DNA of 64,000 nt from Fischerella sp. CENA71 (GTDB lineage: Bacteria > Cyanobacteriota > Cyanobacteriia > Cyanobacteriales > Nostocaceae). The stretch is from positions 1 to 64,000 of the forward strand of contig JANBVI010000032.1 of NCBI GenBank assembly GCA_024239075.1, in the 5' to 3' direction. Below, in pieces: positions 267-18,728 of the stretch (the first letter of the stretch is position 1; each line of letters begins with the position of its first letter). A program made the position numbers and the translations under genes. The notes below the pieces were generated by a model, which was not told the DNA's origin, made no database searches, and saw only the letters and a list, made by a program, of their open reading frames with translations.

Positions 267-1376
267 TTATTTTTGAGCAAGCACCTCTTTCGGAGTAATT
301 TCGGCGTATTGCTCAGGAGTCAAAAATCCTTCCCTAACATTCACTTGCTTGGGTATAAGTTTGAGATTGTACCACATATCTGCAACTTGTTGTTGCTTAT
401 TAATAATTTTTTCAGTAATTGGTACTAATGCAAAATTATATTTCTCATGCATTATCTCCAACATTGGTGGATCAAGTTGAGTCACAGGAGCAAGCAATTG
501 TGCTATTTCTTTGGGGTTATTCTTTGCCCAAACTTGTGCTTTTTGCAGTTCCTCTAAAAATACTTTGATTACTTCCGGATTTTCTTGATAAAACTTGCGT
601 GTTGTAGAGTAAAAGTTGTTAGTATCCCGCAAATTTCCGCCATCTATCAAAACACGACCAACTTTGTTTTGGACATTTCTAGTGACAAAAGGTTCCCAGA
701 TAAACCAAGCATCTACTTTTCCTTGACTAAATGCAACGTTTGCATCTGGAGGTGGTAGATAAACAGGATTAATATCATTAAGTTTTAAACCTTCTTTTTC
801 TAATGCTTTAACGATTAAATAGTGACCAATAGATGCTTTTTGAGAAGCAATTTTTTTACCTTTTAAATCTTTGACGCTTTTGACGGTCGAATTAGTAGGA
901 ACTAACAGCGAAATTGATCTACCATCAGAACTATTAGCAGCCAGGTATACAATAGGAGTCCCGGCTGCTTGAGCAAATACAGGAGGTGACTCAGCTGTAG
1001 AAGCAATATCAAGTCCACCTGCATTCAGAGCTTCTAATTGTTGTGGCCCAGCAGCAAACTCAGGCCACTCTACTTTATAACCAAGGGATTCTAATCTTTT
1101 GGCGAGAGTACCTTTCTGTTCCAAGACAGCTAGAGCTGTAAGTTGTTTAGAGCGTACAATTCTAATGACTTTTTGAGTACCATTACTTGTACTAGCTGTA
1201 TTTGCTGTAGGCGAAGTCGTTTGTTGAACTGAATTATTTTGTGGTCTACTGCAACTAAATACTGTGGTAGATAATACTAAGCTATAGCCGAGGATAAATA
1301 GTGCTGAACGACGAGTGATGATTCGGTGCTTCCAGGATGTAAACTTATCTGGTAAATCTTTCATTAATTGGCTCAT
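267..1376 (-). CDS. sulfonate-type ABC transporter substrate-binding lipoprotein (SsuA/TauA-like)
   Basis: This is a periplasmic solute-binding protein of the aliphatic sulfonate/nitrate/taurine group, expected to deliver organosulfur compounds to an inner-membrane ABC importer. The N-terminus has a basic segment, a hydrophobic helix and a lipobox-like VFSC, so it is probably an exported lipoprotein. The mature part shows the family pattern: a LESLGYKVEWPEFAAGPQ-type segment, ALNAGGLDIA, a VKDLKGKKIA hinge and a DAWFIWEPF segment near residue 225. The 369-residue length fits the family. It is the last gene of a minus-strand set with the monooxygenase at 1609 and the ATPase at 2843. It is a clear paralogue of the binding protein at 5021. 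The true ligand cannot be read from sequence. Confidence 0.85.
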   Translation of the reverse strand: MSQLMKDLPDKFTSWKHRIITRRSALFILGYSLVLSTTVFSCSRPQNNSVQQTTSPTANTASTSNGTQKVIRIVRSKQLTALAVLEQKGTLAKRLESLGYKVEWPEFAAGPQQLEALNAGGLDIASTAESPPVFAQAAGTPIVYLAANSSDGRSISLLVPTNSTVKSVKDLKGKKIASQKASIGHYLIVKALEKEGLKLNDINPVYLPPPDANVAFSQGKVDAWFIWEPFVTRNVQNKVGRVLIDGGNLRDTNNFYSTTRKFYQENPEVIKVFLEELQKAQVWAKNNPKEIAQLLAPVTQLDPPMLEIMHEKYNFALVPITEKIINKQQQVADMWYNLKLIPKQVNVREGFLTPEQYAEITPKEVLAQK

Positions 1377-1608: not shown

Positions 1609-2796
1609 TTAGGAATATTGGGTTACTTGGGGTAATTCTTGATTGAGTACCCAGTTACCAATATCACGGAACTTGTAATCTACAGGATCGTGGAGGGTGA
1701 AAGTACGCAAATCTCGCCAGTAACGGTCAAAGCCATATTTGCTAGCTGTAGAACGGGTTCCCATAACTTCAAAGATACGGTTGGTGATATTTAGCCCAAC
1801 ACGGGTAGCAAAGGTTTTAGCAGCGAAAACTGCGATCGCTACTTCTCCCCTCTCTTCAAAAGTCAGGCTAGCTTCTTTTTCCCACGCCTGTTGCACTTGG
1901 CTCAGGGTGCGATCGCTCAATGCAATAGCTGCTTGTAGTTCTGTCCAGAGTTCACCGTAATGATACAGGATATACGGATCTTTTTTAGCACTGTCTACCC
2001 CGGATGTAATCCAAGGTTTTGTTTGATTTGTGGTATATCCTTCAGCTGCTACTAGCGCCCCTTGTGCAATACCCAGATAAACGTATGTTTTGGTTAATTG
2101 AGCGATGATTCCCAAAAATGTAGCAAAAGCACTATCAGGAGGATGAGGATATCCCAGGATTTCATCTTTTTTTACCAAAACATCGTGAAAAGTAAAGGTG
2201 TCACTATCAGTCCGTCGCTGACCGATGTTGTCCCAATCTTGGTTAGAAGCGACACCAGCTCTGTCTTTAGGAATGATAAATAACCAAGGTATTTCTGTAC
2301 CATCTTGAAGAGCAGAGAATACACGCAAATCTGCAATAGCAACACCCGTACCAAAACTTTTTACTCCATTAACCCGAAAATGCTCACCATCTGGGGTAAC
2401 TTTCAGTCTGGTATCGCGCGTGTTGATGGCATTTGCCCAGAATAAATTATGTTCGGCAGTTTGGCGATAGTATCTTTCTTTTTGCTCGCCTGTGCCAGAA
2501 ACATGAGCTAAAGCTGTTAAATTTAGGTGATTGCCATACAACTGCCCAATCGAACCATCTGCTTTCGAGAGTTCTTGGACAATTTTTAAAGCTTCTATCC
2601 AAGTTGCACCAGTTCCACCATATTCGTTTGGTACTACCAAAGGCAACAAACCGCTTTCTCGTAGTAGTTGGATTTCTACATCTGGGAGTCCGGCTTTGGT
2701 ATCTCTTTCTACTGCTGTGGTAATTAGTTCCGCGGACAGTGAAGAAGCGATCGCAATCCAATCTTGAGATTCTTCTTTAAGTAATAGTTGCACCAT
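1609..2796 (-). CDS. acyl-CoA dehydrogenase-fold monooxygenase, DszC/SfnB-like
   Basis: This 395-residue protein has the acyl-CoA dehydrogenase fold: an N-terminal helical part with LLRESGLLPLVVPNEYGG, a central beta domain with an NGVKSFGTG segment, and a C-terminal helical bundle ending in GTRSTASKYGFDRYWRDLRT. That ending, with no obvious catalytic Glu, is typical of flavin-dependent monooxygenases of the DszC/SfnB group, which use reduced flavin and O2 to oxidise sulfur compounds. The gene is 46 bp downstream of ssuB-like 2843 and upstream of a sulfonate-binding protein, so a desulfurization role is inferred. Reduced flavin could come from the nitroreductase at 4115. An ordinary fatty-acid acyl-CoA dehydrogenase is less likely. 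Confidence 0.8.
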   Translation of the reverse strand: MVQLLLKEESQDWIAIASSLSAELITTAVERDTKAGLPDVEIQLLRESGLLPLVVPNEYGGTGATWIEALKIVQELSKADGSIGQLYGNHLNLTALAHVSGTGEQKERYYRQTAEHNLFWANAINTRDTRLKVTPDGEHFRVNGVKSFGTGVAIADLRVFSALQDGTEIPWLFIIPKDRAGVASNQDWDNIGQRRTDSDTFTFHDVLVKKDEILGYPHPPDSAFATFLGIIAQLTKTYVYLGIAQGALVAAEGYTTNQTKPWITSGVDSAKKDPYILYHYGELWTELQAAIALSDRTLSQVQQAWEKEASLTFEERGEVAIAVFAAKTFATRVGLNITNRIFEVMGTRSTASKYGFDRYWRDLRTFTLHDPVDYKFRDIGNWVLNQELPQVTQYS

Positions 2797-2842: not shown

Positions 2843-3637
2843 TTATGCAGCTTCCGAGTTTAGAGCATAATCGTGTGAGCGATCGCCTTCTTGCTTACCC
2901 ATGACATACTGTAAAATCTTCTCTACTATTTGGGCAAACTCTGCATTTCCTCTAGGTCGTGGACGTGGGAGATCAATTTTCACATCCATACCAATCTGAC
3001 CGTTTTCAATCAACACCACTCGGTCTGCAAGCACTACTGCTTCTTCCACATCATGAGTAATTAGCAGTGCAGTAAATCCCTGTTCTTGCCATAAGTTCTC
3101 TAATAATTGCTGCATTTCAATCCGTGTCAGTGCATCTAAGGCTCCCAAGGGTTCATCCAGCAGCAATAACGAAGGTTTACTCGCTAAGGCTCTGGCTAAT
3201 GCCACCCGTTGGCGTTGTCCACCAGAGAGAACAGCAGGCCATTCGTTAGCACGGTCTTCTAATCCTACTGCTCGTAATACTTGTAAAGCTGTTTGCTTGG
3301 CGTAAACTTTGGAATTGGAACCTAATAAACCTAACTCTACATTTGCCAATACTCGTTGCCAAGGCAGAAGTCGCGCATCCTGAAACATCATGCGGATAGT
3401 GGGATTAATTCGCTGATGAGAATATGTACCATTTAAAAACACAGATCCGCTACTGGCCTCATCTAGTCCCGCAACTAGGCGTAGCATCGTACTCTTGCCA
3501 CAACCACTGCGACCGACAATAGCAACAAATTCCCCTGGTTGAAGCTCTAAATCAATGCCTTGTAAAACTGTTTTTATCCCAAAAGACTTTCTCAATCCTT
3601 CTAGTTTCAAATGCATTCCACGTGTTTTAGATTGCAT
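2843..3637 (-). CDS. ssuB: ABC transporter ATP-binding protein, SsuB/TauB-like
   Basis: This cytoplasmic ATPase subunit of a sulfonate/taurine/nitrate-type importer has all the key motifs: Walker [10 protein letters not shown] near residue 42, the [12 protein letters not shown] signature near 139, Walker [13 protein letters not shown] near 157 and the H-loop [12 protein letters not shown]. Its 264 residues match SsuB. It heads the minus-strand unit ATPase, monooxygenase, binding protein. A copy of the shared TACGGTWAATTGGTAG motif lies about 250 bp upstream. No membrane permease (SsuC) is next to it or elsewhere in the window, so its partner must be encoded elsewhere or has been lost. Confidence 0.88.
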
Positions 3638-4114
3638 ACCAAAAACCTCTCATCTATGACTGAATTGATTATTGGCGAACAGAACGCTTCGGTGAATGTA
3701 CTACCAATATCAAGTTACTTTCCTGACTTTTCTCTCAAAAATGCGTAATAACAGAGAACTAAATTAGTTGATGGGGTAACAACATTTTTGAATTGACATT
3801 TTCCCCTTGATAAACTGGTGTTTGTGAGACAAAATCCTGATTAAGTAAACGAGCTTGTATACTGAGTTAGCATCTTTGATTAAAGTACGGTTAATTGGTA
3901 GGAATACCGTATAATATTTATAGTAGTTTTACATAGATAAAAAGAAAAGACAAGGATATTTTGTAAAAAAATGCAAAATTTAAAGACCCTTTGCCCTTTA
4001 ACCAACCTCTTGCAAAAGTTTAGTTTTGCAAGAAGTCTTATAAACAGAGTTCACAATGAAGGATGAAAATTTCTCTTCCCCTACACTCCACACCCTCATA
4101 CCCTCACACCCGTT
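3638..4114. other. intergenic region upstream of ssuB with regulatory motif
   Basis: This 477-bp AT-rich spacer holds copy A of the shared motif at 3886-3901 and, just after it, the sequence TACCGTATAAT, an inverted echo of the motif's TACGGT half. A 10-bp hairpin (TCTTGCAAAA at 4008-4017 pairing with 4024-4033) lies beyond the nitroreductase stop and has no T-run. No gene was seen. Confidence 0.6.
3886..3901 (+). promoter_or_regulatory. shared sulfur-island motif, copy A
   Basis: The sequence TACGGTTAATTGGTAG is preceded by TTAAAG. It matches copies B (8011) and C (9713) at 15 of 16 positions and lies about 250 bp upstream of the ssuB-like gene. The core is a direct repeat, GGTA-N4-GGTA. 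It is probably an operator for a common regulator; which regulator is unknown. Confidence 0.65.
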
Positions 4115-4936
4115 TTAACGCAATTCAAATCCCAAATTCTTCAATGCTTCCCGTAACCTATCCCGTCCTGATAAAGACTCAGCAAAGGCCACTCGTTTAG
4201 TTGAGTGTTCCGTCCAATCACCAGGAACATTCATCTTTTGGGAATTGTAAAAAGCTTTCATCACTTGATTGTAGAATGCGATCGCCTCCTCCTGCTCCTC
4301 CAATTTATACGTTTCGCGATGCAACACAGCGGTTTGGGGTAGACGTGGTTTCACCGCAGTTTCCACTAGGAGATCAGCATAACCAACACATAAACCAAAC
4401 ACAGCAAAAACATGAGGTGGTAAACCCAGAACCTCTGACACTTTTTCTGGATGGTTACGCAAAGCACCAATATAAACTGTCCCCAAACCAAGAGATTCCG
4501 CTGCCACGACTGCATTTTGCGCTGCTAATGCTGCATCTATCGCCGCCATCAAAAACATTTCTAAGTAATCTAAACCTTCATGGGGTAGTCCCCGACTCTC
4601 AGCAATATGTGTCAGTCTAGCCAAATCCGCCAACCATACCAGAAAAAGTGGACACTGGCGGATATGTGCTTGATTATTAGCTAGTTGTGACAATAGTTCC
4701 TTGCGCTGGGAACTTTCCACTGCTACTACACTCCACGTCTGGAGGTTCGAGGAAGTAGAAGCAGATTGTGCTGCTGCAATTAAAATCTCTAGAGTTCCTG
4801 GTGGTAAAGAATTAGGTAGATAAGCACGAATCGAACGGTGAGATAAAAGATTTGCAATACAGTCATTTCCAGGAATATCTATATCAAAATTACCTATACC
4901 ATAACGGCGATTAAGTAAGTCAGTTGGAGTAGTCAT
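4115..4936 (-). CDS. NfsA-like nitroreductase / NAD(P)H:flavin reductase
   Basis: This 273-residue member of the nitroreductase superfamily is nearest in layout to NfsA/FRP. The N-terminal HRSIRAYLPNSLPPG is the FMN-phosphate-binding region, and ASTSSNLQTWSVVAV with IGALRNHPEKVSEVLGLP and VFGLCVGYAD are the family blocks. Such enzymes bind FMN and reduce nitroaromatics, quinones or free flavin with NADPH. Between a DszC-like monooxygenase and a sulfonate-binding protein, supply of FMNH2 to the monooxygenase is a reasonable inference but not shown. The start near 4936 is followed at once by the conserved N-terminus. It reads in the same direction as the gene at 5021, which ends 84 bp upstream, so the two may be co-transcribed. 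Confidence 0.8.
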   Translation of the reverse strand: MTTPTDLLNRRYGIGNFDIDIPGNDCIANLLSHRSIRAYLPNSLPPGTLEILIAAAQSASTSSNLQTWSVVAVESSQRKELLSQLANNQAHIRQCPLFLVWLADLARLTHIAESRGLPHEGLDYLEMFLMAAIDAALAAQNAVVAAESLGLGTVYIGALRNHPEKVSEVLGLPPHVFAVFGLCVGYADLLVETAVKPRLPQTAVLHRETYKLEEQEEAIAFYNQVMKAFYNSQKMNVPGDWTEHSTKRVAFAESLSGRDRLREALKNLGFELR

Positions 4937-5020
4937 GATTTTTTGTTGTTGGTTGTTTGTTGATGGTTGTTAGTTTCTTGTTTTCCAACCAACTAACAAT
5001 TATCAACTAAATAACTAATA

Positions 5021-6121
5021 TTATATTTTTTGCGAAATATTCGCATATTGCTCTGGTGTTAGCGTCACTTTTTTCACATCAATCTGTTTAGGAATTAATT
5101 TTAATTCATAAAATTTATCAGCTACTTTTTGTTGCGTTGCAATTAGATTTTCATTGATTTTTACAACACCGAATTGTTTACGTGCAGTTGCCTTTTTCAT
5201 GGTATCTAAATCAATATTTAAGACTGGTGCAAGAGTTGCTGCAACTTCATCTCGATGTTTATCAGACCAATCTTCTAAATTTTTTATTTCTTCTATAACT
5301 GCCTTAACTATCTCCTGATTTTCTGTGACATATTTACGCCTAGCTAGGTAATATCCTCCTTGTTTGGTAATTCCTTCTCCTGTAATTAATACACGGGCAT
5401 TAGCATTTTTCTCTGCTGCTGCATAAAAAGGGTCCCAAATTACCCAAGCATCTATACTGTTTTTCACAAATGCAGCACGGGCATCTGCTGGTGGTAAAAA
5501 TACAGGTTGAATTTCACTATATTTGATACCTGCTTTTTCTAAAATTTGTACTAGCAAATAATGAGCGCTAGAACCTTTTTGCACTGCAATTTTTTTGCCT
5601 TTAAGGTCAGTTATAGTTTTAATAGATGAATTTTGAGGAATTAAAACCGCCGACCCAGCTGGATTAGGAGCAATACCAGCAACATAAGTTATATCTGCTC
5701 CTGCTGCTTGGGCAAAAATCGGTGGTAATTCCCCAGTATGACCAAAGTCAATACTGCCAACATTCATTGCTTCTAAAAGCTGTGGACCAGCAGGAAATTC
5801 AATCCATTCCACAGATACACCTTCTGGTTGAAGACGTTTTTCTAAAAGTCCTTTTGTTTTTAAAAGAATTGCCGATTTTTGATAGCCAAATCTGAATACA
5901 GATGCTTGGGTTGGAGTTGAATTATTAGCAGATACAGTAGTAGTATTGCTTGCATTATTCGCTGTGCAAGCGGCAAAGAGCAAGCTGAGACACAGGCTAA
6001 TAATAAAAGCCCTAGCGAACGGAATAGGTATGAAAGATAGTATGTTATTTTTGTTTGAAACTCTCAATATTCTCATTCTTTTAAAGTTGATTTGCAAGCG
6101 ATAAAAAATTAGCTTATTCAT
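5021..6121 (-). CDS. sulfonate-type ABC transporter substrate-binding lipoprotein (second copy)
   Basis: This is a second periplasmic binding protein of the SsuA/TauA type, parallel in every block to the one at 267: VEWIEFPAGPQLLEAMNVGSID, ITDLKGKKIAVQKGS, FLPPADARAAF and DAWVIWDPFY. A long N-terminal extension precedes a hydrophobic helix and a lipobox LFAAC. An internal Met at 6076 is an equally plausible start and would remove the first 15 residues. It follows the porin gene at 6215 by 93 bp on the same strand, which suggests that porin and binding protein form an outer-to-inner membrane uptake route. The ligand may differ from the first copy. Confidence 0.84.
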   Translation of the reverse strand: MNKLIFYRLQINFKRMRILRVSNKNNILSFIPIPFARAFIISLCLSLLFAACTANNASNTTTVSANNSTPTQASVFRFGYQKSAILLKTKGLLEKRLQPEGVSVEWIEFPAGPQLLEAMNVGSIDFGHTGELPPIFAQAAGADITYVAGIAPNPAGSAVLIPQNSSIKTITDLKGKKIAVQKGSSAHYLLVQILEKAGIKYSEIQPVFLPPADARAAFVKNSIDAWVIWDPFYAAAEKNANARVLITGEGITKQGGYYLARRKYVTENQEIVKAVIEEIKNLEDWSDKHRDEVAATLAPVLNIDLDTMKKATARKQFGVVKINENLIATQQKVADKFYELKLIPKQIDVKKVTLTPEQYANISQKI

Positions 6122-6214
6122 CCGATTTTACACTCTTGAATTTAAATGCAGTAATTGTATCGATTTACCAGTTATATGAATCAACTAATAACTGATAAAT
6201 CCCTTCCCCTTCTC

Positions 6215-7834
6215 CTAGAAAGTAAAGGTTGTACGAATTGCGCCTACCCAAATTGGATCATTAGCACTGTTGTGTTCTGGCGCGGTAATCACATAGAAAT
6301 CTGGAGTAATGCTAATGCGATCGCTCACACGAAAACGATAGAATGCTTCGATGTGTAAAGATGTATCTGGATCTTCTCGTCTTTGTCCCGCTACTCTGAA
6401 GTCATTGCTAGTAACTTTCGGTGGTATGCCAACTGTTATTCCACCCAAATTACCCTCTTTAAACAAATCTGGAAATGCAAAGGTAAGCGCACCATTAATA
6501 ATAGTCGCATTACTATCACCATTATCTTGTTGATGAGCAAGGGTATAACCAAACCAACCACCCAAATTAAATTTTTCAGCCAGTTTCCAATTCAATTGCA
6601 GTCCAAAGTTATCTGATGTAGTAGCATTTTGTAGAAAAGGATTTCTAGCAAAAGCACTACCCGTGCCGCCAGTGAGATTGTTACCAGAATTAGTAGGATA
6701 GTATTTGTGAGTGTAAGTCAGCCCTATATCTAAATTCTTACTAGGTGAGATAGTCAGCTGAGAGATGATTGCCTGAGAGCTATTATTAAAAAGCCCTCCG
6801 TTGGGTTGATTAGCTGCAAAATCATCTGCTATGTAAGCTGCGTGTAGTTGCAATTTCTCACTAAATTTATAGGCAAAAGCCGCTCCTGCACCATCAAAAC
6901 CAGGTCTGTAAACAGTCGGGTTGAATTGCCCAAATCGAGAGATACCCCCTTGTAAGAGGTTGCCATTTAAGGGGTTTAGTGTTGGTACATAAATAGGAAA
7001 ATTGAGTGTCCTTGCACCTACCCAAACAATAGCTTTGTCACCGATTGGGAAACGATAATACAAGTTAGAAAGATAAAGGTCGTTGTCTTGAAATCTAGCC
7101 GATTTATCAAGGGCAAAACGGGTCATGTGAGTTCCCGTTTCTGTGACTAAGTTAGAAAGATTGCTTGCTATTAAATCAGTGTTCAGTTGGTCTTTGCCAG
7201 TGAAGCTGGTTTGAAAGGATAACCTAGCACGGTAAGAAAAAATGGTACTAGTTTCATCGCTAGTATCATCAGCAGGAGTATTGTTAGCGCGATCGCCAAA
7301 GGTATCAGCTACCAAGAAAACCACATCACCAACTAGTTTGGTGGTAGTAGAAAACTGATTAGCTTCTACTTCTGCTGTTCGGGCTTCTAGATTATCTACC
7401 CTTCCCCGTAATTCAGCTAGTTCTGGACCAAATTCCTCTGTCAGTCTTTGCAGTGTGGCTAAATCTTCTCTTGTTACCGAGTCTGCTGTCGCAGATGCAA
7501 TCAGTTGACTGATTTGGTCTAAACAAGCATTTAACCCCGCCGCAAATTCATAGCGACTGAGGGGACGATTCCCGCGATAAGTTTTGTCAGGATAGCCAAC
7601 AATACATCCATACCGTTCTACCAATGACTGGAGGGCAGAAAAAGCCCAGTCTGTGGGTTGTACATCGGAAAGTTCGGAGACTGATGTGATTGGTGAGTCA
7701 ATCGTTGGTTGCGATGATGGTTGTGGGGTATTTTGTGTGATCTCTTGGGCAAGAGTTTTTGTACTCGCTGCTAAAAAAAGCAGCACTAAAAACATGGGTA
7801 AAGTCAGTAATAATGTCCAAACAGTCTTTTTCAT
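6215..7834 (-). CDS. SLH-domain / OprB-type outer membrane porin
   Basis: This is a cyanobacterial outer-membrane porin of the SLH plus OprB type (SomA-like, often labelled iron-uptake porin). The chosen start at 7834 gives MKKTVWTLLL followed by a signal peptide ending near TLAQ; an upstream Met at 7888 would put 18 polar residues ahead of it. An SLH domain follows (TDWAFSALQSLVERYGCIVGYPDKTYRGNRPLSRYEFAAGL in essence, near residues 80-125), then a short coiled coil (LAELRGRVDNLEARTAEVE) and a long beta-barrel ending in TFTF. Its place upstream of a sulfonate-binding protein and downstream of motif copy B suggests a porin induced for organosulfur uptake rather than a general one. Confidence 0.85.
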   Translation of the reverse strand: MKKTVWTLLLTLPMFLVLLFLAASTKTLAQEITQNTPQPSSQPTIDSPITSVSELSDVQPTDWAFSALQSLVERYGCIVGYPDKTYRGNRPLSRYEFAAGLNACLDQISQLIASATADSVTREDLATLQRLTEEFGPELAELRGRVDNLEARTAEVEANQFSTTTKLVGDVVFLVADTFGDRANNTPADDTSDETSTIFSYRARLSFQTSFTGKDQLNTDLIASNLSNLVTETGTHMTRFALDKSARFQDNDLYLSNLYYRFPIGDKAIVWVGARTLNFPIYVPTLNPLNGNLLQGGISRFGQFNPTVYRPGFDGAGAAFAYKFSEKLQLHAAYIADDFAANQPNGGLFNNSSQAIISQLTISPSKNLDIGLTYTHKYYPTNSGNNLTGGTGSAFARNPFLQNATTSDNFGLQLNWKLAEKFNLGGWFGYTLAHQQDNGDSNATIINGALTFAFPDLFKEGNLGGITVGIPPKVTSNDFRVAGQRREDPDTSLHIEAFYRFRVSDRISITPDFYVITAPEHNSANDPIWVGAIRTTFTF

Positions 7835-8010
7835 TTTGATATAAACACGTAATCGATCTGGAACAAAATCTTTTGTCATTCCGCACATATCAGTCAGATG
7901 ACATCGATATTTTGAAGATTTTTTCTACAAAAAGTTATTTCTATTGGAAATGATTATTGGGGATGAGAGAAAAGCTTTTGGCAGCAACCAATCTACCTTA
8001 ATCATTAAAG

Positions 8011-8026
8011 TACGGTAAATTGGTAG
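8011..8026 (+). promoter_or_regulatory. shared sulfur-island motif, copy B
   Basis: The sequence TACGGTAAATTGGTAG is preceded by ATTAAAG, identical to copy C over all 16 bases. It lies in the 436-bp divergent region between the porin (start 7834, 177 bp away) and the aldo/keto reductase (start 8271, 245 bp away), so it could serve either or both. Nothing else was recognised in that spacer. Confidence 0.65.
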
Positions 8027-8270
8027 AATTAGTGTATTTAAATCTTACTAGATAGCAGCATTTCATAAAAACTGTAGTAAATAAGTATTTTTGGCTACAT
8101 TAATTCCAAATTAAGAATTAGAAAAATCTGCTTGTATATGGAAACAATGTCTGCTAACATACACTTTTTAGTAAAAAATACTAAAAACCGATAGATTTAC
8201 TGTAATTATTTTTTTTGACATATTTGTAAGTTTTATAGGTAAATGTAATTAAGAGAAGTTATGACAGCAT

Positions 8271-9311
8271 ATGAAGTACAATCAGCTAGGTGAGAGTAAC
8301 CTTAAAGTTTCAGAAATTTGTCTAGGAACAATGACCTATGGGCATCAAAATACAATTGAAGAAGCTCATCAACAACTAGACTATGCCATTGCCCAAGGAA
8401 TTAATTTCATAGATGCTGCGGAGATGTATCCAGTACCACCGCGTGGCGAAACTCAAGGGAGAACAGAAGCTTATATAGGAGAATGGTTGAAAAAACAAGA
8501 GCGTGATCAACTCATCATTGCCACTAAAATTGCAGGTCCTGGCCGTCTTTTTCAATGGCTGCGGGGAGGAGATATTAAGATTGATCGTGATAACATCAAA
8601 CAGGCAGTAGATGATAGTCTTAAAAGATTACAAACAGATTACATAGACCTGTATCAAATTCATTGGCCAGATCGCTATGTCCCAACTTTTGGACAGACTG
8701 AATATAATCCTCAATTTGAGCGAGAAACTGTCAGTATTGCTGAACAATTAGAAGCTTTTGCTGATGTGATTAATGCGGGTAAAATTCGCTATGTGGGTTT
8801 GAGTAATGAAACTCCTTGGGGCGTAAGTGAATTTATTCGTATTGCTCAACAGCTAGGATTACCTAAAGTCGTTTCTATCCAAAACGCTTATAATTTGCTT
8901 AACCGTGTGTTTGATTCTGCTTTAGCTGAAGTTTCTCGATATACAAATATTGGCTTACTAGCTTATAGTCCTTTAGGATTTGGTTTCTTAACTGGAAAAT
9001 ATCTTGGTGAGCAAAAACTAGAAAACACACGCATAGCTTTGTTTCCTGGTTTTGGACAACGCTATTTTAAACCAAATGTTAATGAAGCTGTCGCAGCCTA
9101 TGTAGAAATTGCCAAAAAATATAATCTTAAACCTGCACAGTTAGCTTTAGCTTTTGTACGAAGTCGGTGGTTTGTGAATAGTACAATTATTGGTGCAACA
9201 TCATTAGAACAACTGCAAGAAAATATACAAAGTGTGAATATAGTTCTCGAAAAAGAGATTATAGCAGAAATAGATACAGTTCACACTCGTTATCCCAACC
9301 CTGCACCATAA
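8271..9311 (+). CDS. aldo/keto reductase (Tas/YajO-like)
   Basis: This is a cytoplasmic NADPH-dependent oxidoreductase of the aldo/keto reductase family, 346 residues. The TIM-barrel landmarks are clear: LGTMTYGHQN at the N-terminus, catalytic Asp/Tyr in FIDAAEMYP near residue 48, Lys in IIATKIAG, His in YQIHWPDRY, and the NADP-binding LLAYSPLGFGFLTGKYL and NSTIIGATSLEQL at the C-terminal end. The length and the long loop after the catalytic Tyr match the Tas subgroup. It is divergent from the porin and shares its upstream region with motif copy B. A terminator at 9351 follows. The substrate is unknown; the sulfur context suggests handling of aldehydes released by sulfonate oxidation, which is only inference. 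Confidence 0.88.
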   Translation: MKYNQLGESNLKVSEICLGTMTYGHQNTIEEAHQQLDYAIAQGINFIDAAEMYPVPPRGETQGRTEAYIGEWLKKQERDQLIIATKIAGPGRLFQWLRGGDIKIDRDNIKQAVDDSLKRLQTDYIDLYQIHWPDRYVPTFGQTEYNPQFERETVSIAEQLEAFADVINAGKIRYVGLSNETPWGVSEFIRIAQQLGLPKVVSIQNAYNLLNRVFDSALAEVSRYTNIGLLAYSPLGFGFLTGKYLGEQKLENTRIALFPGFGQRYFKPNVNEAVAAYVEIAKKYNLKPAQLALAFVRSRWFVNSTIIGATSLEQLQENIQSVNIVLEKEIIAEIDTVHTRYPNPAP

Positions 9312-9350
9312 GAATTAAAAATGTTATTTTAAATTTCCAATTTTATATAT

Positions 9351-9375
9351 ACCGCCTTAAGTAGGCGGTTTTTTT
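9351..9375 (+). terminator. rho-independent terminator of the aldo/keto reductase gene
   Basis: ACCGCC (9351-9356) pairs with GGCGGT (9364-9369) around a 7-base loop and is followed by a run of T, 40 bp after the aldo/keto reductase stop codon. Confidence 0.85.
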
Positions 9376-9913
9376 AGATGAAATAAATCAAGATTATACC
9401 TACTATTGGAAATGGGTATGGAGGTGTAATGGTGTGCGTGAAGTCATATTTGCATGTTTTGTTGTAGGATTTTCCTGTGATTAGCTCTCCTGAAAATACA
9501 GTGAAGATTAAAGGGAAAATAGCCAAGGAAAGCTAAGATTACATAACTATATTTTTTTAAAAACATAAAATACATACATTAAATCTATCGATTTACTATG
9601 CTTTTTGTTTAAAAGTGTGTATTGTGACATAATCTGGACTTAATTTTAATTTTTATGAAAACTGTTCTTGATTTTCTCCAAAAAATATGTAAAGCTTGCT
9701 TTATAAGTTAAATACGGTAAATTGGTAGATTAATAGTAGTTTCTAATTTTAGATGCCAGTAACTTAATGTTATTTATCAAGTGATGGTCTGTTTGCGTCA
9801 CTGGTACATTTCATTCTTATTTTCAATTTTGTAGTTAGTAATGAGTGGAATTACTGCACTGCCTTTGAAGCTTTTCTGTTTACGCAAGCATTGATATTGC
9901 AGCGAGGAATTCA
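9376..9913. other. intergenic region upstream of the flavoprotein gene
   Basis: This 538-bp AT-rich spacer carries motif copy C at 9713. No other gene, repeat or RNA was recognised. The start region of the next gene has GCGAGGAATTC a few bases before the ATG, a moderate ribosome-binding site. Confidence 0.5.
9713..9728 (+). promoter_or_regulatory. shared sulfur-island motif, copy C
   Basis: TACGGTAAATTGGTAG, preceded by TTAAA, lies 186 bp upstream of the flavoprotein/ferredoxin/binding-protein unit. It is identical to copy B and one base different from copy A. Confidence 0.65.
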
Positions 9914-11566
9914 ATGAGTAATAACCAGTTGTCTTCAGGTGATTTATCTACTACTGATTTTGACCAAAATTTGCTCTGTGATGTGCTGGTAATTGGTGGT
10001 GGCCCGGCTGGTACTTGGGCAGCTTGGAGTGCTGCATCTGCTGGTAGCAAGGTTATTTTGGTAGATAAAGGTTACTGTGGAACCAGTGGCTGTGCAGCAG
10101 CATCAGGTAATGGTGTTTGGTATGTGCCACCAGAACCGGAAGCGAGAGAAGAAGCAATGGCTTCTCGCGAAGCATTAGGAGGATTTTTATCCAGTCGTGA
10201 TTGGATGCAACGGGTGCTGGATCAGACTTATGCAAACGTCAACCTACTGGCAGATTGGGGCTATCCTTTTCCTGTAGATGAGGAGGGTAAACCCTATCGG
10301 CGTAGTCTCCAAGGCCCAGAATATATGCGCCTGATGCGAAAGCAAATTAAACGGGCAGGGGTAAAAATTTTAGACCACAGCCCAGCTTTGCAACTATTGG
10401 TAGATGCAGAGGGCGCAGTAGCAGGGGCGACGGGAATTAACCGTCAGACTAATCAAAAGTGGGTTGTGCGATCGCACGCAGTTATCATTGCTACCGGCGG
10501 CTGTGCTTTTTTAAGCAAAGCTTTAGGGTGCAATGTGTTAACGGGAGATGGATACCTTATGGCAGTTGAAGCGGGTGCGGAAATGTCGGGGATGGAATTT
10601 TCCAACGCCTACGGAATTGCACCTGCATTTTCTTCTGTAACTAAAACCCTGTTTTACAACTGGGCAACCTTTACCTATGGAGATGGTACACCCATCCCTG
10701 GCGCAGGTTCCCAAAAAGGACGTTCCGTCATTGCTAAAACTTTATTAACTCAGCCAGTCTACGCCATCTTAGACAAAGCCACAGATGAGATGCGCGTACA
10801 CATGCGTTTAGCCCAACCTAATTTCTTTCTGCCTTTTGATCGTGCAGGCATCGATCCCTTTACCCAGCGCTTCCTTGTTACCTTGCGCTTAGAGGGAACC
10901 GTGCGTGGTACTGGTGGGATTCGGATTACTGATTACACTTGTGCAACCTCAGTAAGTGGACTCTATGCGGCTGGAGATGCGGCTACACGAGAATTAATCT
11001 GTGGAGGATTTACTGGTGGCGGCAGTCATAATGCTGCTTGGGCTATATCTTCTGGATACTGGGCAGGGCATTCTGCTGCTGTATACGCTCATGAGTTAGG
11101 TAAGCAAGCCAATCAAAGGCAAGTTAAGGCTGTGGGTGAGGCAGGATTTACATCTGGTAGTCAACGTCAACTCAACAGTGAAGAGATCATCAAAGCTACC
11201 CAAGCAGAAGTCTTCCCTTATGATCGCAACTATTTCCGCAATGAACAAGGATTAACAACATCATTGCAAAGATTAGATTACCTTTGGCAAGAGATTCGTA
11301 CCAGCCAAGCTGCTGATGATAGTAATATTCTCCGTACCAGAGAAGCATCTGCAATGGTAGCTACAGCCCGATGGATGTACTACAGCGCCCTGGAACGTAA
11401 AGAAACGCGGGGAATGCACAGACATCTAGACTATCCAGAACAAGATGCTAATCAACAACACCGTTTAATTAGTGGTGGTTTGGATCAAGTCTGGGTGAAA
11501 GCCCAGGGACTAAGCACTAGGGATTGGAGATCGGTAACAGGGAAAGAACTTGCAACTGTATCTTAA
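9914..11566 (+). CDS. AprA-like FAD-dependent oxidoreductase (fumarate reductase flavoprotein superfamily)
   Basis: This 550-residue flavoprotein is of the fumarate reductase / adenylylsulfate reductase alpha / aspartate oxidase superfamily. The FAD dinucleotide-binding motif IGGGPAGTWAAW lies at residues 27-38, followed by VDKGYCGTSGCAAASGNG. The second FAD region is IIATGGCAFLSKALGCNVLTGDGYLMAVEAGAEM, and the C-terminal FAD contact is GLYAAGDAATRELICGGFTGGG. The 4Fe-4S protein at 11702 is its likely electron partner, an arrangement like AprAB. A sulfonate-type binding protein follows. The substrate is not known: a redox step on an imported organosulfur compound is inferred from context. It is too diverged to call true APS reductase, and cyanobacteria normally assimilate sulfate through a different enzyme. 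Confidence 0.8.
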   Translation: MSNNQLSSGDLSTTDFDQNLLCDVLVIGGGPAGTWAAWSAASAGSKVILVDKGYCGTSGCAAASGNGVWYVPPEPEAREEAMASREALGGFLSSRDWMQRVLDQTYANVNLLADWGYPFPVDEEGKPYRRSLQGPEYMRLMRKQIKRAGVKILDHSPALQLLVDAEGAVAGATGINRQTNQKWVVRSHAVIIATGGCAFLSKALGCNVLTGDGYLMAVEAGAEMSGMEFSNAYGIAPAFSSVTKTLFYNWATFTYGDGTPIPGAGSQKGRSVIAKTLLTQPVYAILDKATDEMRVHMRLAQPNFFLPFDRAGIDPFTQRFLVTLRLEGTVRGTGGIRITDYTCATSVSGLYAAGDAATRELICGGFTGGGSHNAAWAISSGYWAGHSAAVYAHELGKQANQRQVKAVGEAGFTSGSQRQLNSEEIIKATQAEVFPYDRNYFRNEQGLTTSLQRLDYLWQEIRTSQAADDSNILRTREASAMVATARWMYYSALERKETRGMHRHLDYPEQDANQQHRLISGGLDQVWVKAQGLSTRDWRSVTGKELATVS

Positions 11567-11701
11567 TTTCTTACACTTAATTAAGGGACAACGGAGACAA
11601 CATGGAGAGAACATAGAGAGCATTTTTACTCCTTATACCTCCTCACCATCCCGATCCCCAATTCCTGATCCCCTATTTTTAATCCAAAATCTAAAATAGG
11701 C

Positions 11702-12031
11702 ATGATTGAGTTAGTCAGTGAATCTCGGTGCATTAAATGTAATATCTGCGTCAGTGCTTGCCCAACCAATGTATTTGACATAGTACCCGATGCACCACCC
11801 AAAATTGCTAGACAGAGCGATTGTCAAACTTGCTTTATGTGTGAATTGTACTGTCCTGTAGATGCACTCTATGTTGCTCCCCAAGTCGAACCTTTAGCAG
11901 AGGTAGACGAATACTCACTTAAAGAGGCTGGACTTTTAGGAAGTTATCGTCGCAATATTGGTTGGGGACGTAACCTTACTACCACAGCAGGGCAAGATTC
12001 TACTTATCAGCTCCTAAAACAGATGAAATAG
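11702..12031 (+). CDS. two-cluster 4Fe-4S ferredoxin-like protein (AprB-like partner)
   Basis: This small 109-residue iron-sulfur protein has two complete CxxCxxCxxxCP motifs, at Cys10/13/16/20 and Cys41/44/47/51, each expected to hold a 4Fe-4S cluster. The C-terminal 55 residues (LKEAGLLGSYRRNIGWGR) have no cluster and may dock onto the flavoprotein, as the AprB tail does onto AprA. The gene is 135 bp after the flavoprotein stop, and the spacer contains short ATCCC/CCCGATCCC-type repeats. It probably carries electrons to or from the upstream flavoenzyme. Annotation as a free ferredoxin is possible, but the pairing argues for a dedicated subunit. Confidence 0.85.
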   Translation: MIELVSESRCIKCNICVSACPTNVFDIVPDAPPKIARQSDCQTCFMCELYCPVDALYVAPQVEPLAEVDEYSLKEAGLLGSYRRNIGWGRNLTTTAGQDSTYQLLKQMK

Positions 12032-12126
12032 CATAAACGCCTTTTTCCTTTCGTGTTCCTTTGTGTTCTCCATGCCAGTTCTGAGCGGCCAAAACAGCCG
12101 CTTAGAATTTTCTCTTGTAATCAGTT

Positions 12127-13155
12127 ATGATGACTACGCAATCATTTTTACCCCAATTATCTACTTTAGCTGCATCTTGTCTTTTATTGCTCAGCACTGC
12201 TTGTACTTCCAATAAGACTGTCTCACAAGCTGTAGCAAACCCCAAAATAGAAGTTACATCTAATACTTCTACCTTGCGTCTGGGTTTTATTAGCACTAAT
12301 AATTCTAAAGCTCCCACTGGTCCGACTGGTTGGGCTATTCACCAGAACAAACTTCTACCGCAATTGCAACAACTGGGAATTACAGAAGTTAAGACGCTCT
12401 CCTTCCCTAATGGTCCTAACCTCAATGAAGCTTTAGTTGCAGGGGAAGTAGATGTGGGTATTTATGGTGATACACCCGCCTTGGTTGGCAAAGCTAACAG
12501 TATTCCCACCCGCTTGATTGGTCAAGAACAAGTGGGAATGAATTCTTGGTTAGTAGCCAAGAAAAATGGACCACGTTCTTTAGAAGAACTAAAAGGGCAA
12601 AAAGTCGCAACTTCCAAAGGATCGTATCTACACCGCTATTTGATTGGATTGTTGCAAGAATCAGGTTTGAAGAACAAGGTGACAGTTGTGCATTTGTTAC
12701 CTAGTGATGCTCAAGCTGCATTAGAACGGGGTGACGTGGCAGCGATCGCAGCTGCTACAGGGACAGGACCACTGTTAAAATCCAAAGGATACCCAGTTAT
12801 AGATGAAGCAATCAAGCATCCTGACTTACCAGGTACAAGCGTAACTGTCGCCACCGAAGCTTTTCTGGCTAAACATCCTGACTTACCTCAAAAGTGGAAT
12901 CAAATTAAACAAGCAGCAGTCAAAGATATCAAGGCCAATTCAGAAGCATACTATAAATTCCATGCCCAAGTGACAAGATATCCTCTTGATGTTGTCAAAG
13001 CATCTTTCCCCATCGAACAATTCCCAGAAGAACCACTTCCTGCCAAAGGAATACAACTATTGGAGGGAACGAAAAAGTTTCTAGTGTCACAAAAATTAGC
13101 TAAGTCAGATTTTAATTTGACTGATTGGGTTGCAGATTACAAGGATAAAAAATAA
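12127..13155 (+). CDS. sulfonate-type ABC transporter substrate-binding lipoprotein (third copy)
   Basis: This third periplasmic binding protein of the nitrate/sulfonate/taurine class has 342 residues. The signal sequence ends in a lipobox LSTAC near residue 26. The blocks TLSFPNGPNLNEALVAGEVDVGIYGDTPALV, LEELKGQKVATSKGSYLHRYL and LLPSDAQAALERGDVAAI are family-typical, but it is more distant from the copies at 267 and 5021 than those are from each other. It lies 95 bp after the 4Fe-4S gene and ends the flavoprotein unit, so its ligand is presumably the substrate of that redox pair. Its TAA overlaps an ATG that opens a decayed reading frame (13155), which suggests that the operon once continued. 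Confidence 0.82.
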   Translation: MMTTQSFLPQLSTLAASCLLLLSTACTSNKTVSQAVANPKIEVTSNTSTLRLGFISTNNSKAPTGPTGWAIHQNKLLPQLQQLGITEVKTLSFPNGPNLNEALVAGEVDVGIYGDTPALVGKANSIPTRLIGQEQVGMNSWLVAKKNGPRSLEELKGQKVATSKGSYLHRYLIGLLQESGLKNKVTVVHLLPSDAQAALERGDVAAIAAATGTGPLLKSKGYPVIDEAIKHPDLPGTSVTVATEAFLAKHPDLPQKWNQIKQAAVKDIKANSEAYYKFHAQVTRYPLDVVKASFPIEQFPEEPLPAKGIQLLEGTKKFLVSQKLAKSDFNLTDWVADYKDKK

Positions 13156-17032: not shown

Positions 17033-18181
17033 TTATTTACTTCTAAATAATGATTCCAGCGAAGTAATTTGCTCCGGAGCATAACGAAAAGCGCGAAACA
17101 CAGAATTTTGTTCTCCACGTGCTACAAATGCAGACTCACCAGGAGCATTTTGGTTGCCAAAATAGGGATTTACAAATTCCCAAACAATTTCTCCATCTGC
17201 TGTGACTTCAAATATCCGTCCATAAGCACCCTCTGTAATCAAAGTATTGCCATTGGGTAGACGTTGCGCTCCAGATATATAGGCACTAAAAAAATTATGG
17301 GGTGGATTATCGACATATTCCCAAACAATTTCTTTGCTTTGACGGCTAACTTCAATCACACGAGAAAAATTCAAAGCTGTGTTATGACGGTGAGCGCCGT
17401 TATCAAATATTAGTAAATTCCCATTTGGTAATTCGTTAGGAAAATGTTGCTGTGCCAACACATCATGTCCTAATTTCCAAATAATTTCTCCAGTGTTTCT
17501 ATCTACAATCACAACTGTAGATATATTGCGAAAACTCAGCACAATATTGCCATCAGCTAACTCTCCAACTGTATTACCATGTGACCATTCATGGCGTTCA
17601 TCATGAGCAGTGATAATATCTGTTTCTAGGTCAAGATGTTCGTAAGCGTGCCAAGTCCAGACAATCTCACCTTGTGGTGTAACTTCATAAATAACATCTG
17701 CATAAATATCCTTACCATCAACCTCTGTGTTTGGGACTCCACCTTTGATTTGAGGTACTAAAGATTGAGGAACTTTTTCAATCGCAAGTATAATGGTGTT
17801 GCCATTACGCAGACGACGAGCATCATGATGATGGTCTGGATGTTTGTATTCCCAAAGAACATTTCCTTGAGGATCTACTTCTAAAACAACTCCACCTTTA
17901 AATAAAGACCACTTAGGAAAACGAGGCGGATTTTCTGGTGTTTTACCATTATAAAGTAGATTGCCATTAGGTAATAAATAACCATATAAACCAGGTGGAT
18001 AGGGTAGTTTCCATTTATGTACTATCTCCCCTTCTAGGTTAATTAAATATACTTCTCCCTGACCTGTTAATGGAGTAAAAAGTGTATATCCATGAAAGGT
18101 CTTTTCAGGATTATAAGCTCTTAAACCAGTACCGCGACGGCGAATTGTATTTTGGTCAACAATTGTTTTTGCTAAAGTCAT
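17033..18181 (-). CDS. arylsulfotransferase (ASST)-like beta-propeller protein
   Basis: This 382-residue protein is of the arylsulfotransferase family (ASST/PQQ-like propeller). Repeated blades show the pattern GEIV-x-W or GNVLWEY followed by ARRLRNGNTI, ELADGNIVLS, ELPNGNLLIFD and RLPNGNTLITEG. Conserved His residues in HPDHHHDARRL and THDERHEWSHGN match the family's catalytic region. The start at 18181 gives MTLAKTIVDQ; an upstream Met at 18229 adds an unlikely 16-residue extension. No signal peptide is clear. The family transfers sulfuryl groups between phenols through a His intermediate. It precedes the CX4R protein and closes the sulfur island. Activity cannot be confirmed from sequence. 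Confidence 0.78.
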   Translation of the reverse strand: MTLAKTIVDQNTIRRRGTGLRAYNPEKTFHGYTLFTPLTGQGEVYLINLEGEIVHKWKLPYPPGLYGYLLPNGNLLYNGKTPENPPRFPKWSLFKGGVVLEVDPQGNVLWEYKHPDHHHDARRLRNGNTIILAIEKVPQSLVPQIKGGVPNTEVDGKDIYADVIYEVTPQGEIVWTWHAYEHLDLETDIITAHDERHEWSHGNTVGELADGNIVLSFRNISTVVIVDRNTGEIIWKLGHDVLAQQHFPNELPNGNLLIFDNGAHRHNTALNFSRVIEVSRQSKEIVWEYVDNPPHNFFSAYISGAQRLPNGNTLITEGAYGRIFEVTADGEIVWEFVNPYFGNQNAPGESAFVARGEQNSVFRAFRYAPEQITSLESLFRSK

Positions 18182-18728
18182 AGTTAATTTTGCTTCGTAA
18201 ATAGAGTGTAGGAGATAGATATCAAACAAGCTTGTACAACTATGCCTGATAATTAAAGTTTCAGGCTAATAGCAAAATTTATGTCATTACTACTGAATAG
18301 TAGAGTTAAGCTAAAAGACTTGGAAATTATTGACTTGTGGTTATAAAAATAAGTACAAGCATAATTCAAAAGATTCAGCTTCAACATGATTATTTATTAA
18401 CTTAAATAGCTTAAGTTTTCTCTTACAAGCGTCAATAATCTAGCAATGAAGTATTCCATAAAATTTAGAATTACTTAGATTTTTATTTTGTCATTAGCTA
18501 TGAAATAGCAGTTATTTTTCCTCAAAATTAGCTAATTTCAAGCACAAACATATATCAGTAAGCCAAAATTATATTTTTGCTTTTGGCTTCTTGATATAGT
18601 TAATTACTCTAAGTCGATAGATAAAGTGTATTTAGATTTTGATTATTGCATATCTAGATATAGATAGCAAGCTTTTGCTTCAAGCCTAAATACTTTTGCT
18701 ATCTACAAGTCACAATAACAATAAGAAA
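18182..18728. other. AT-rich intergenic region, no gene seen
   Basis: These 547 bp lie between the arylsulfotransferase start and the terminator of the DUF1003 gene. Several stretches repeat A/T-rich words, but no conserved frame, tRNA or repeat family was recognised. It probably contains the promoter of the arylsulfotransferase unit. Confidence 0.4.

Follow-up and report, generated by a model that had tools for sequence, protein, structure and literature searches.

The 16-bp motif that lies upstream of sulfur genes in DNA of Fischerella sp. CENA71 forms the left two-thirds of a 26-bp dyad. Judging from its sequence and its neighbours, we consider this dyad almost certainly the operator of a sulfur-economy regulon. 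The protein that binds it is probably Rrf2A, a CymR-like protein whose own gene is preceded by the dyad.

The motif and the 26-bp dyad

The window, that is, the whole stretch of 64,000 nucleotides (64 kb) analysed, contains TACGGTWAATTGGTAG exactly at 3886, 8011 and 9713, always on the + strand, and no further exact copy. The three copies claimed in the preliminary description are real. At up to 3 mismatches the window held 4 matches, vs 1.05 expected from shuffling. The statement that the 64 kb hold no other copy is right for the exact 16-mer but not for weaker dyads, which occur at about 8174, 9570 and 18600, with a borderline one at 6142. The organism's own genome has 4 exact copies, namely these three and one at C21:36100. 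The latter sits in a second sulfur island and is a local duplicate of the promoter at 3886, the sole such duplicate noted.

The core of the motif had been read as a direct repeat, GGTA-N4-GGTA. We replaced this reading by a dyad, with the consensus AAAn-TACGGTAAAT-YGRTAG-ATTTACnGTA-nTTT; the three strong copies in the window each have the A/T flanks that belong to this conserved unit. The NtcA consensus is GTA-N8-TAC. The dyad consensus has GTA-N12-TAC and does not match an NtcA site.

A PWM was built from 31 sulfur-gene sites, and the rrf2 and cysK sites were left out of the training. Since the 31 sites had been picked for their adjoining sulfur genes, the fit of the PWM inside the training set is circular; its E-values are rough. 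The dyads and genes of the window are listed below.

267..1376, - strand: SsuA-family sulfonate-binding protein gene
1609..2796, - strand: SfnB/DszC-like acyl-CoA dehydrogenase-fold oxidoreductase gene
2843..3637, - strand: ssuB-like sulfonate ABC ATPase gene, putative target of operator 1
3882..3916, + strand: operator 1, dyad 3886-3911 flanked by A/T, some 245-250 bp ahead of ssuB (- strand); PWM score 42.7
4115..4936, - strand: nitroreductase-family gene
5021..6121, - strand: second SsuA-family sulfonate-binding protein gene
6142..6176, - strand: borderline dyad immediately before the second ssuA gene; PWM score 13.2, vs a maximum of 7.2 in 100 shuffled 400-bp stretches
6215..7888, - strand: OprB/SLH porin gene, putative target of operator 2
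8007..8041, + strand: operator 2, dyad 8011-8036 between the divergent porin and aldo/keto reductase genes; PWM score 44.0
8174..8209, no single strand: operator 2b, second dyad, weaker and more symmetric, nearer the aldo/keto reductase start; PWM scores 22.7 and 20.5 on the two strands
8271..9311, + strand: aldo/keto reductase gene, putative target of both operator 2 and operator 2b
9570..9604, - strand: operator 3b, weaker dyad lying about 139 bp away from operator 3; PWM score 18.0
9709..9743, + strand: operator 3, dyad 9713-9738 before the gene of the AprA-like flavoprotein; PWM score 45.9
9914..11566, + strand: AprA/fumarate-reductase-like FAD protein gene, putative target of operator 3
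11702..12031, + strand: 4Fe-4S ferredoxin-like gene
12127..13155, + strand: NMT1/SsuA-like substrate-binding protein gene
17033..18229, - strand: arylsulfotransferase-like gene, with the weak dyad at 18601 upstream of it
18601..18635, + strand: weak dyad upstream of the arylsulfotransferase-like gene; PWM score 23.4

A protein with the working label tauA_L10 was assigned to the SsuA family.

The distances of 177-250 bp given earlier for the three copies hold if the porin starts at the internal Met at 7834 (177 bp), but from the first ATG at 7888 the distance is 123 bp. The dyad is used in either orientation, up to about 300 bp upstream of genes, and its sites are often paired, about 70-170 bp apart. 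A fixed promoter geometry was rejected: among eight ssuB/ssuC promoters the distance between dyad and gene is not constant, and no shared -10/-35 is evident.

Sites in the own genome and across cyanobacteria

The own genome gave 13 PWM matches at E <=0.01. Six lie in sulfonate/sulfate islands, three in a GST/SDR cluster whose contig also carries a TauE-type exporter gene, and one each before the rrf2A-cysK operon, a sulfatase-FGE pair, an ARD-family gene (acireductone dioxygenase, methionine salvage) and a sulfur-poor cpcB-cpcA (phycocyanin) operon. Weaker matches are found before two sbpA genes and before another FGE-sulfatase pair.

At <=1 mismatch, the 16-mer was present in 120 of 193 Nostocaceae genomes, and the same pattern read backwards, used as the control, in 44. 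We compared 30 automatically selected 16-mer loci with 40 of the 46 control matches. A sulfur gene lay within 1.5 kb in 11/30 of the former vs 1/40 of the latter (p = 2e-4), which bears out the expected enrichment near sulfur genes in related genomes; the sulfur reference set was drawn largely from genes beside sites, but it was applied to the control loci as well. The right arm of the dyad was present in 12 of the 30 loci. All 12 were intergenic and 10 stood beside a sulfur gene; after removal of the training sites L024, L034 and L035, this was the case for 7/9 full-dyad loci. Matches of the reversed pattern had no right arm and, apart from the one locus counted above, no sulfur neighbours. 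The intergenic fraction of all 16-mer matches was not significantly above that of the control (16/30 vs 13/40, p = 0.09), because most matches without the right arm are coincidences in coding sequence; 14/18 of these are inside open frames and look like chance. A separate set of 40 loci came mostly from genomes with several matches and is not a random sample.

The dyad was also found in other cyanobacterial families, where it marks different sulfur genes in each family; the 29 loci of this class scan were all outside the training set. In the set of 30 named-genome loci, L246 duplicates a training site, that of L075, and L247 is a repeat of L336. Site counts per genome are lower bounds due to stricter filters. 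That is, G047 counts 0 sites, yet its rrf2A site scores 29.2, and Chroococcus FPU101 has no site at E 0.01, yet one of 22.8 before cpcB. These results support the earlier proposal of a conserved non-coding operator related to sulfur, and the nature of the target genes suggests that it responds to sulfur.

Sulfur-poor phycocyanin

The cpcB loci examined were the best 80 of 176 relatives found, together with three of the own genome, all sites being outside the training set. The dyad preceded low-sulfur cpcB in 11/38 of these loci and normal cpcB in 0/44, and 27/38 low-sulfur loci had no dyad within 500 bp. Low-sulfur loci had been counted as 39 before L190 was dropped (length 0; elsewhere read as C+M 9). 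The sulfur-poor protein resembles phycocyanin-3 (cpcB3A3) of Fremyella diplosiphon, with 3 Cys+Met residues in CpcB and 2 in CpcA. In that organism the cpcB3A3 operon reportedly encodes a sulfur-sparing phycocyanin under regulation. Fremyella diplosiphon is absent from the named loci, and most low-sulfur loci have no nearby dyad.

Rrf2A as the candidate regulator

Of the 30 orthologue loci, from 30 genomes in 26 genera, 29 had the dyad before rrf2A; two positions recurred, near -32 and near -122. These sites had PWM scores of >=13.7 vs the shuffled maximum of 7.2, and no rrf2 or cysK site had been used in training. In a 57-row tree, which holds part of these genomes' Rrf2 proteins, the rrf2A clade (98/95) had the site in 34/35 and the sister clade in 0/5. 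L234 and L235 lose the site when the gene is assumed to span the longest open frame, because the site is then within that frame. When a close rrf2A (E <=1e-55) was present, 31/32 genomes had a site (median 6), and when it was absent, 15/28 (median 1); these, like the comparisons with LysR below, are raw counts that ignore kinship. For the LysR comparison, G009 and G022 also counted as genomes with a close rrf2A, on the basis of the tree.

Rrf2A matched PF02082 above the cut-off and TIGR00738 with 111.4 bits (cut-off 73.3). After the superfamily, its best curated family was CymR, but it did not reach the NCBIfam CymR equivalog cut-off (97.8 of 195 bits; IscR 68.4). Solved structures matched by Rrf2A include CymR 2y75, the best being 4cic. 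The own Rrf2A contains just two Cys residues, at 10 and 140, and lacks a three-cysteine Fe-S ligand cluster. Among distinct Rrf2 relatives the C-terminus was MYYI in 54/57 and MYHI in 2/57, and the distant paralogue L132 had neither. The gene cysK followed rrf2A in 21/30 loci.

Several observations run against Rrf2A. The centre of the dyad, YGRTAG, is asymmetric yet conserved, which a plain dimer does not explain. No cysK lay within the stretch covered in 9/30 rrf2A loci. Three Rrf2 genes outside the rrf2A clade (L280, L281, L285) have a site 247-329 bp upstream, and G002 has 5 sites with neither a close rrf2A nor a LysR relative. Taken with the positive evidence, the sequence data still make it probable that the CymR-like Rrf2A binds the dyad.

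Other explanations

The preliminary description had suggested an Rrf2 or a LysR regulator. The former is favoured by its own dyad at nearly all its loci, but the latter is a serious rival, if an unlikely one: a LysR-type protein encoded near rrf2A (L116:464-1399) would bind the dyad as a CysB/Cbl-like activator, and Rrf2A would be merely a target. CysB and Cbl, of the LysR family, control ssu/tau-type genes in enterobacteria, and the LysR gene near rrf2A gives a similar setting here. In 15/30 relatives this gene is itself preceded, at about 72-124 bp, by a dyad-like site (score above 10), and G004, G030 and G037 have 4-7 sites and a LysR relative with no close rrf2A. CysB-family models match the protein, but far below their cut-offs (99.4 of 436 bits against the CysB model). 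Moreover, 14/30 LysR loci had no site above 8 and one more had a site of 8.5, whereas 1/30 rrf2A loci fell below 13.7. Six genomes with rrf2A but no LysR at E <=1e-90 had a median of 6 sites, and the typical LysR box is shorter than the 26-bp dyad and differently shaped. It is improbable that several MYYI-tailed Rrf2 paralogues, such as L009:11443-11883 near the second ssu island, share the operator with Rrf2A. They have the same tail and the Rrf2 fold, one is located in the second sulfur island with a relative in a G017 island, and sites together with other Rrf2 relatives, but no close rrf2A, are present in G002, G030 and G037. Against this, 3/4 Rrf2 genes in the own genome lack a site. Genomes without any match (e.g. 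G010, G049) also contain Rrf2 relatives, of about 50% identity, so having some Rrf2 is not enough. The L009 protein as sole regulator was rejected, as its gene has no upstream site.

It is very improbable that the dyad works at the RNA level, as the stem-loop of a leader or terminator, and not as a DNA site. It could fold into a 10-bp stem with a 6-nt loop, but pairing was 76.1% vs 76.3% after shuffling, so no covariation was seen; the element also occurs in both orientations up to about 300 bp upstream, and Rfam gave no match in window positions 3500-10100. Chance or a mobile repeat is equally hard to believe. The 16-mer matches in open frames and the duplicate at C21:36100 would suit it, but the control pattern and the tests of right arm and sulfur neighbours refute it for the full dyad. 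Neither random spread nor a dispersed mobile repeat, which had been named as possible refutations, was borne out, since the full dyads are intergenic, mostly beside varied sulfur genes, with differing flanks, in either orientation and across families.

Proposed mechanism and comparison with known systems

We propose that the 26-bp dyad, in many cases present as a pair of sites, is bound by a homodimeric, CymR-like Rrf2A repressor. With ample cysteine, CysK would hold Rrf2A by the latter's C-terminal ...MYYI tail, and Rrf2A would repress transcription. When sulfur falls and O-acetylserine rises, the Rrf2A-CysK complex would loosen and the genes would be turned on, namely those for uptake and breakdown of sulfate, sulfonates and sulfate esters, for methionine salvage, rrf2A-cysK itself and, in several lineages, sulfur-poor phycocyanin. 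Repression is suggested by the CymR analogy and the site near -32 of rrf2A, not by promoter maps. We think this explanation as a whole, an operator of sulfur economy bound by an Rrf2A repressor under a CysK/O-acetylserine signal, fairly likely; for CysK as co-sensor with Rrf2A, which is argued by analogy, we put the chances at about even.

Excerpts of PMC12895370 and PMC2869319 deal with CymR-CysK, the cysteine regulon known from Bacillus subtilis and Staphylococcus aureus, and those of PMC12895370 and PMC4961446 with the partnership of CymR with CysK and the C-terminal isoleucine tails of known CysK partners. As far as these excerpts go, the cyanobacterial system shares with CymR-CysK the Rrf2 fold, the lack of the three-cysteine cluster, the isoleucine tail, the cysK partner gene and the sulfur targets. 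In contrast, the cyanobacterial clade remains below the CymR cut-off, and its putative targets include sulfatases, sulfonate islands, a porin and phycocyanin. The dyad also appears to differ from the Bacillus CymR operator consensus, of which the text of PMC2869319 gave no statement. CysR, a sulfur regulator of Synechococcus PCC 7942, belongs to the Crp family, another protein family than Rrf2. Here too the setting is that of sulfur-regulated genes of a cyanobacterium, to judge by the title of a paper of Nicholson and Laudenbach from 1995.

In our searches of the open-licence literature, including passages of PMC8049743, PMC12895370, PMC4961446, PMC2491639 and PMC2869319, we found no description of the dyad element, and no cis element or regulator for these sulfur-starvation genes or for the switch to sulfur-sparing phycocyanin.

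The dyad links sulfur scavenging with sulfur-sparing phycocyanin and provides testable parts. It also marks AprA-like flavoprotein, amidase, GNAT and acetolactate-decarboxylase-like genes as likely parts of organosulfur use. It may well be that one Rrf2A/CysK cysteine sensor with a 26-bp operator unites sulfate uptake, organosulfur scavenging, methionine salvage and the swap to a sulfur-poor pigment, although we hold the opposite to be no less conceivable. If true, a single switch would serve both sulfur supply and sulfur sparing.

Copies of the 16-mer and the sulfur islands

The preliminary description placed three copies of a 16-bp motif at 3886, 8011 and 9713, and exact matches were indeed found at these positions. 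The gene assignments in the window showed that a sulfonate-use island surrounds them. Beyond the window, the genome of Fischerella sp. CENA71 (7.47 Mb in 95 contigs) has a fourth exact copy in another sulfur island, here called the second island. A copy with one mismatch lies 41 bp upstream of an SsuA-family gene, and a fumarate-reductase/AprA-like flavoprotein gene comes next. The genes of the two islands are as follows.

Window island: SsuA-family binding proteins, SfnB/DszC-like oxidoreductase, SsuB-like ATPase, nitroreductase
Window island, further: OprB porin, aldo/keto reductase, AprA/fumarate-reductase-like FAD protein, 4Fe-4S ferredoxin, another binding protein
Second island: ssuC, sfnG, sfnB, sulfate-binding protein gene

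The promoter of the second island derives in part from a recent duplication of the 3886 region. This recent ssuB promoter copy (L009 against window 3886-4300; 84% over 140 bp) adjoins a nitroreductase gene fragment (93% over 173 bp).

The 16-mer as part of a 26-bp dyad

The 16-mer occurs beyond chance: matches with at most one mismatch were found in 120 of 193 Nostocaceae genomes, against 44 for the pattern read backwards. We compared 30 automatically fetched 16-mer loci with controls (40 of the 46 loci). In 12/30 16-mer loci the site extends into a right arm, with GTA at positions 24-26; these 12 were all intergenic, and 10 were beside a sulfur gene. The 18 without this arm lay inside open frames in 14 cases, and one was beside a sulfur gene. 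Among the controls, GTA at these positions and a sulfur neighbour were each found in 1/40. The intergenic fraction alone did not separate the two sets (16/30 against 13/40, p = 0.09).

Alignment of the sites revealed a 26-bp dyad with A/T flanks, AAAn-TACGGTAAAT-YGRTAG-ATTTACnGTA-nTTT, whose centre is conserved yet asymmetric. Covariation between the arms was not seen in the aligned sites; each arm retains its letters from site to site, a pattern that fits a protein-binding dyad. Both orientations relative to the gene occur. Dyads are frequently paired, as at 8007/8174 and 9570/9709 in the window and at about -32 and -122 of many rrf2A genes (CymR-like Rrf2-family genes), and contig C21 carries three, spaced by about 92 and 74 bp.

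Predicted regulon

Which genes adjoin the sites, and where the sites lie, was observed directly. A sequence-only model built on 31 sulfur-labelled sites gave 13 matches in the own genome at E <= 0.01.

Six island sites: the window three, two on C21 (one preceding an alkanesulfonate monooxygenase gene), one on C26
Upstream of an rrf2-cysK operon
Upstream of a sulfatase gene, then a formylglycine-generating-enzyme (FGE) gene
Three within a GST/SDR cluster, a TauE-type exporter gene about 5 kb away
L118:6027-6062 (contig C64), immediately before an acireductone dioxygenase (ARD)-family gene
Upstream of the cpcB-cpcA operon

Weaker matches were found upstream of another FGE-sulfatase pair and of two sbpA genes. 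The site before the ARD-family gene hints that methionine salvage is part of the regulon. AprA/fumarate-reductase-like flavoproteins stand next to SsuA-like binding proteins, both dyad-preceded, at window 9914-13155 and L010:3609-6571; these flavoproteins are possibly organosulfur redox enzymes.

In relatives, dyads precede ssuB, ssuC, ssuD, sfnB, sbpA, tauD, sulfatase genes and cysK. A class-wide scan gave matches at E <= 0.001 in 35/155 genomes; 27 of the 29 loci inspected (27 of the 29 outside the window's family) were intergenic, and 16 had a gene of the sulfur reference set no more than 1.5 kb away. For loci from genomes with named records, the corresponding values were 27/30 and 19/30. 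Matches occurred in 19 of these 23 genomes, with 12-17 per genome in Fischerella muscicola PCC 7414, Calothrix PCC 7716, Calothrix HK-06, C. brevissima, Nostoc linckia, N. carneum and Elainella. Four genomes had none at E 0.01, namely two Microcystis, Lyngbya confervoides and Chroococcus FPU101. Full dyads also stand upstream of GNAT, amidase, acetolactate-decarboxylase-like and SDR genes (L060, L061, L066, L070, L077), which are candidates for new sulfur-related functions. In the small genome of a distant cyanobacterium (G349, 2.7 Mb), a dyad overlapping an open frame adjoins an sbpA relative (L361; 53% identity).

Sulfur-poor phycocyanin

The C5 cpcB-cpcA operon (L114:11365-13107), preceded by dyads, encodes products with 3 and 2 Cys+Met residues, compared to 7-11 in ordinary CpcB, and sits in a sulfonate-use island with a taurine-dioxygenase-like and an SsuA-like gene. 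A dyad lay within 500 bp of 11/38 low-sulfur cpcB loci (12/38 within 1500 bp) and of 0/44 ordinary ones. The 11 loci belong to the own genome, Fischerella PCC 7414, six Calothrix, Scytonematopsis, Chroococcus FPU101 and a Chroococcidiopsidaceae MAG. The remaining low-sulfur cpcB genes must either be under different control or have sites that the model misses. In Fremyella, low-sulfur phycocyanin reportedly takes the place of the ordinary form under sulfur limitation.

Candidate regulators

Among regulator genes, rrf2A has the most consistent dyad (29/30 orthologue loci), and rrf2 and cysK sites were absent from the model training set. With site labels assigned by hand from the upstream scans, a site was found in 34/35 members of the rrf2A clade and 0/5 of its sister clade; three Rrf2 genes outside the rrf2A clade also have one within about 330 bp. 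The median site count per genome was 6 with a close rrf2A and 1 without. cysK lies downstream of rrf2A in 21/30 loci. Rrf2A is closer to CymR than to IscR, yet below the CymR cut-off, and ends in MYYI, as do 54/57 distinct relatives. According to PMC12895370 and PMC4961446, a C-terminal isoleucine is common to CysK partners including CymR, whose DNA complex is stabilised by CysK. A second rrf2-cysK pair of the own genome (L133, G000:C4:37308) has no dyad; relatives of its clade occur in four other genomes (L282, L284, L286, L294), three of them adjoined by cysK.

Against Rrf2A, the LysR-type gene near rrf2A also has its own site in 15/30 relatives, and in three genomes 4-7 sites occur together with LysR in the absence of a close rrf2A. 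Where neither gene was found (n=23), the median was 0 sites, with at least one in 10 genomes and at least three in G002 only. The rrf2A/LysR pair follows the sites better than either gene alone, and LysR may be a second regulator. Upstream of the LysR gene near rrf2A at L116:464-1399, the site retains the dyad arms without the centre.

For Rrf2A itself, we propose that it is a repressor of the dyad genes; binding, sign and signal we infer from CymR. An Rrf2/CysK cysteine regulon as a kind is already known from Firmicutes. In the open-licence papers searched, we found no account of this operator or the cyanobacterial Rrf2A clade, nor of a dyad link to sulfatases, sulfonate islands or sulfur-sparing phycocyanin. 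When cysteine is plentiful, Rrf2A with CysK would be kept on the DNA as a repressor, and when O-acetylserine builds up, Rrf2A would be let go from the DNA.
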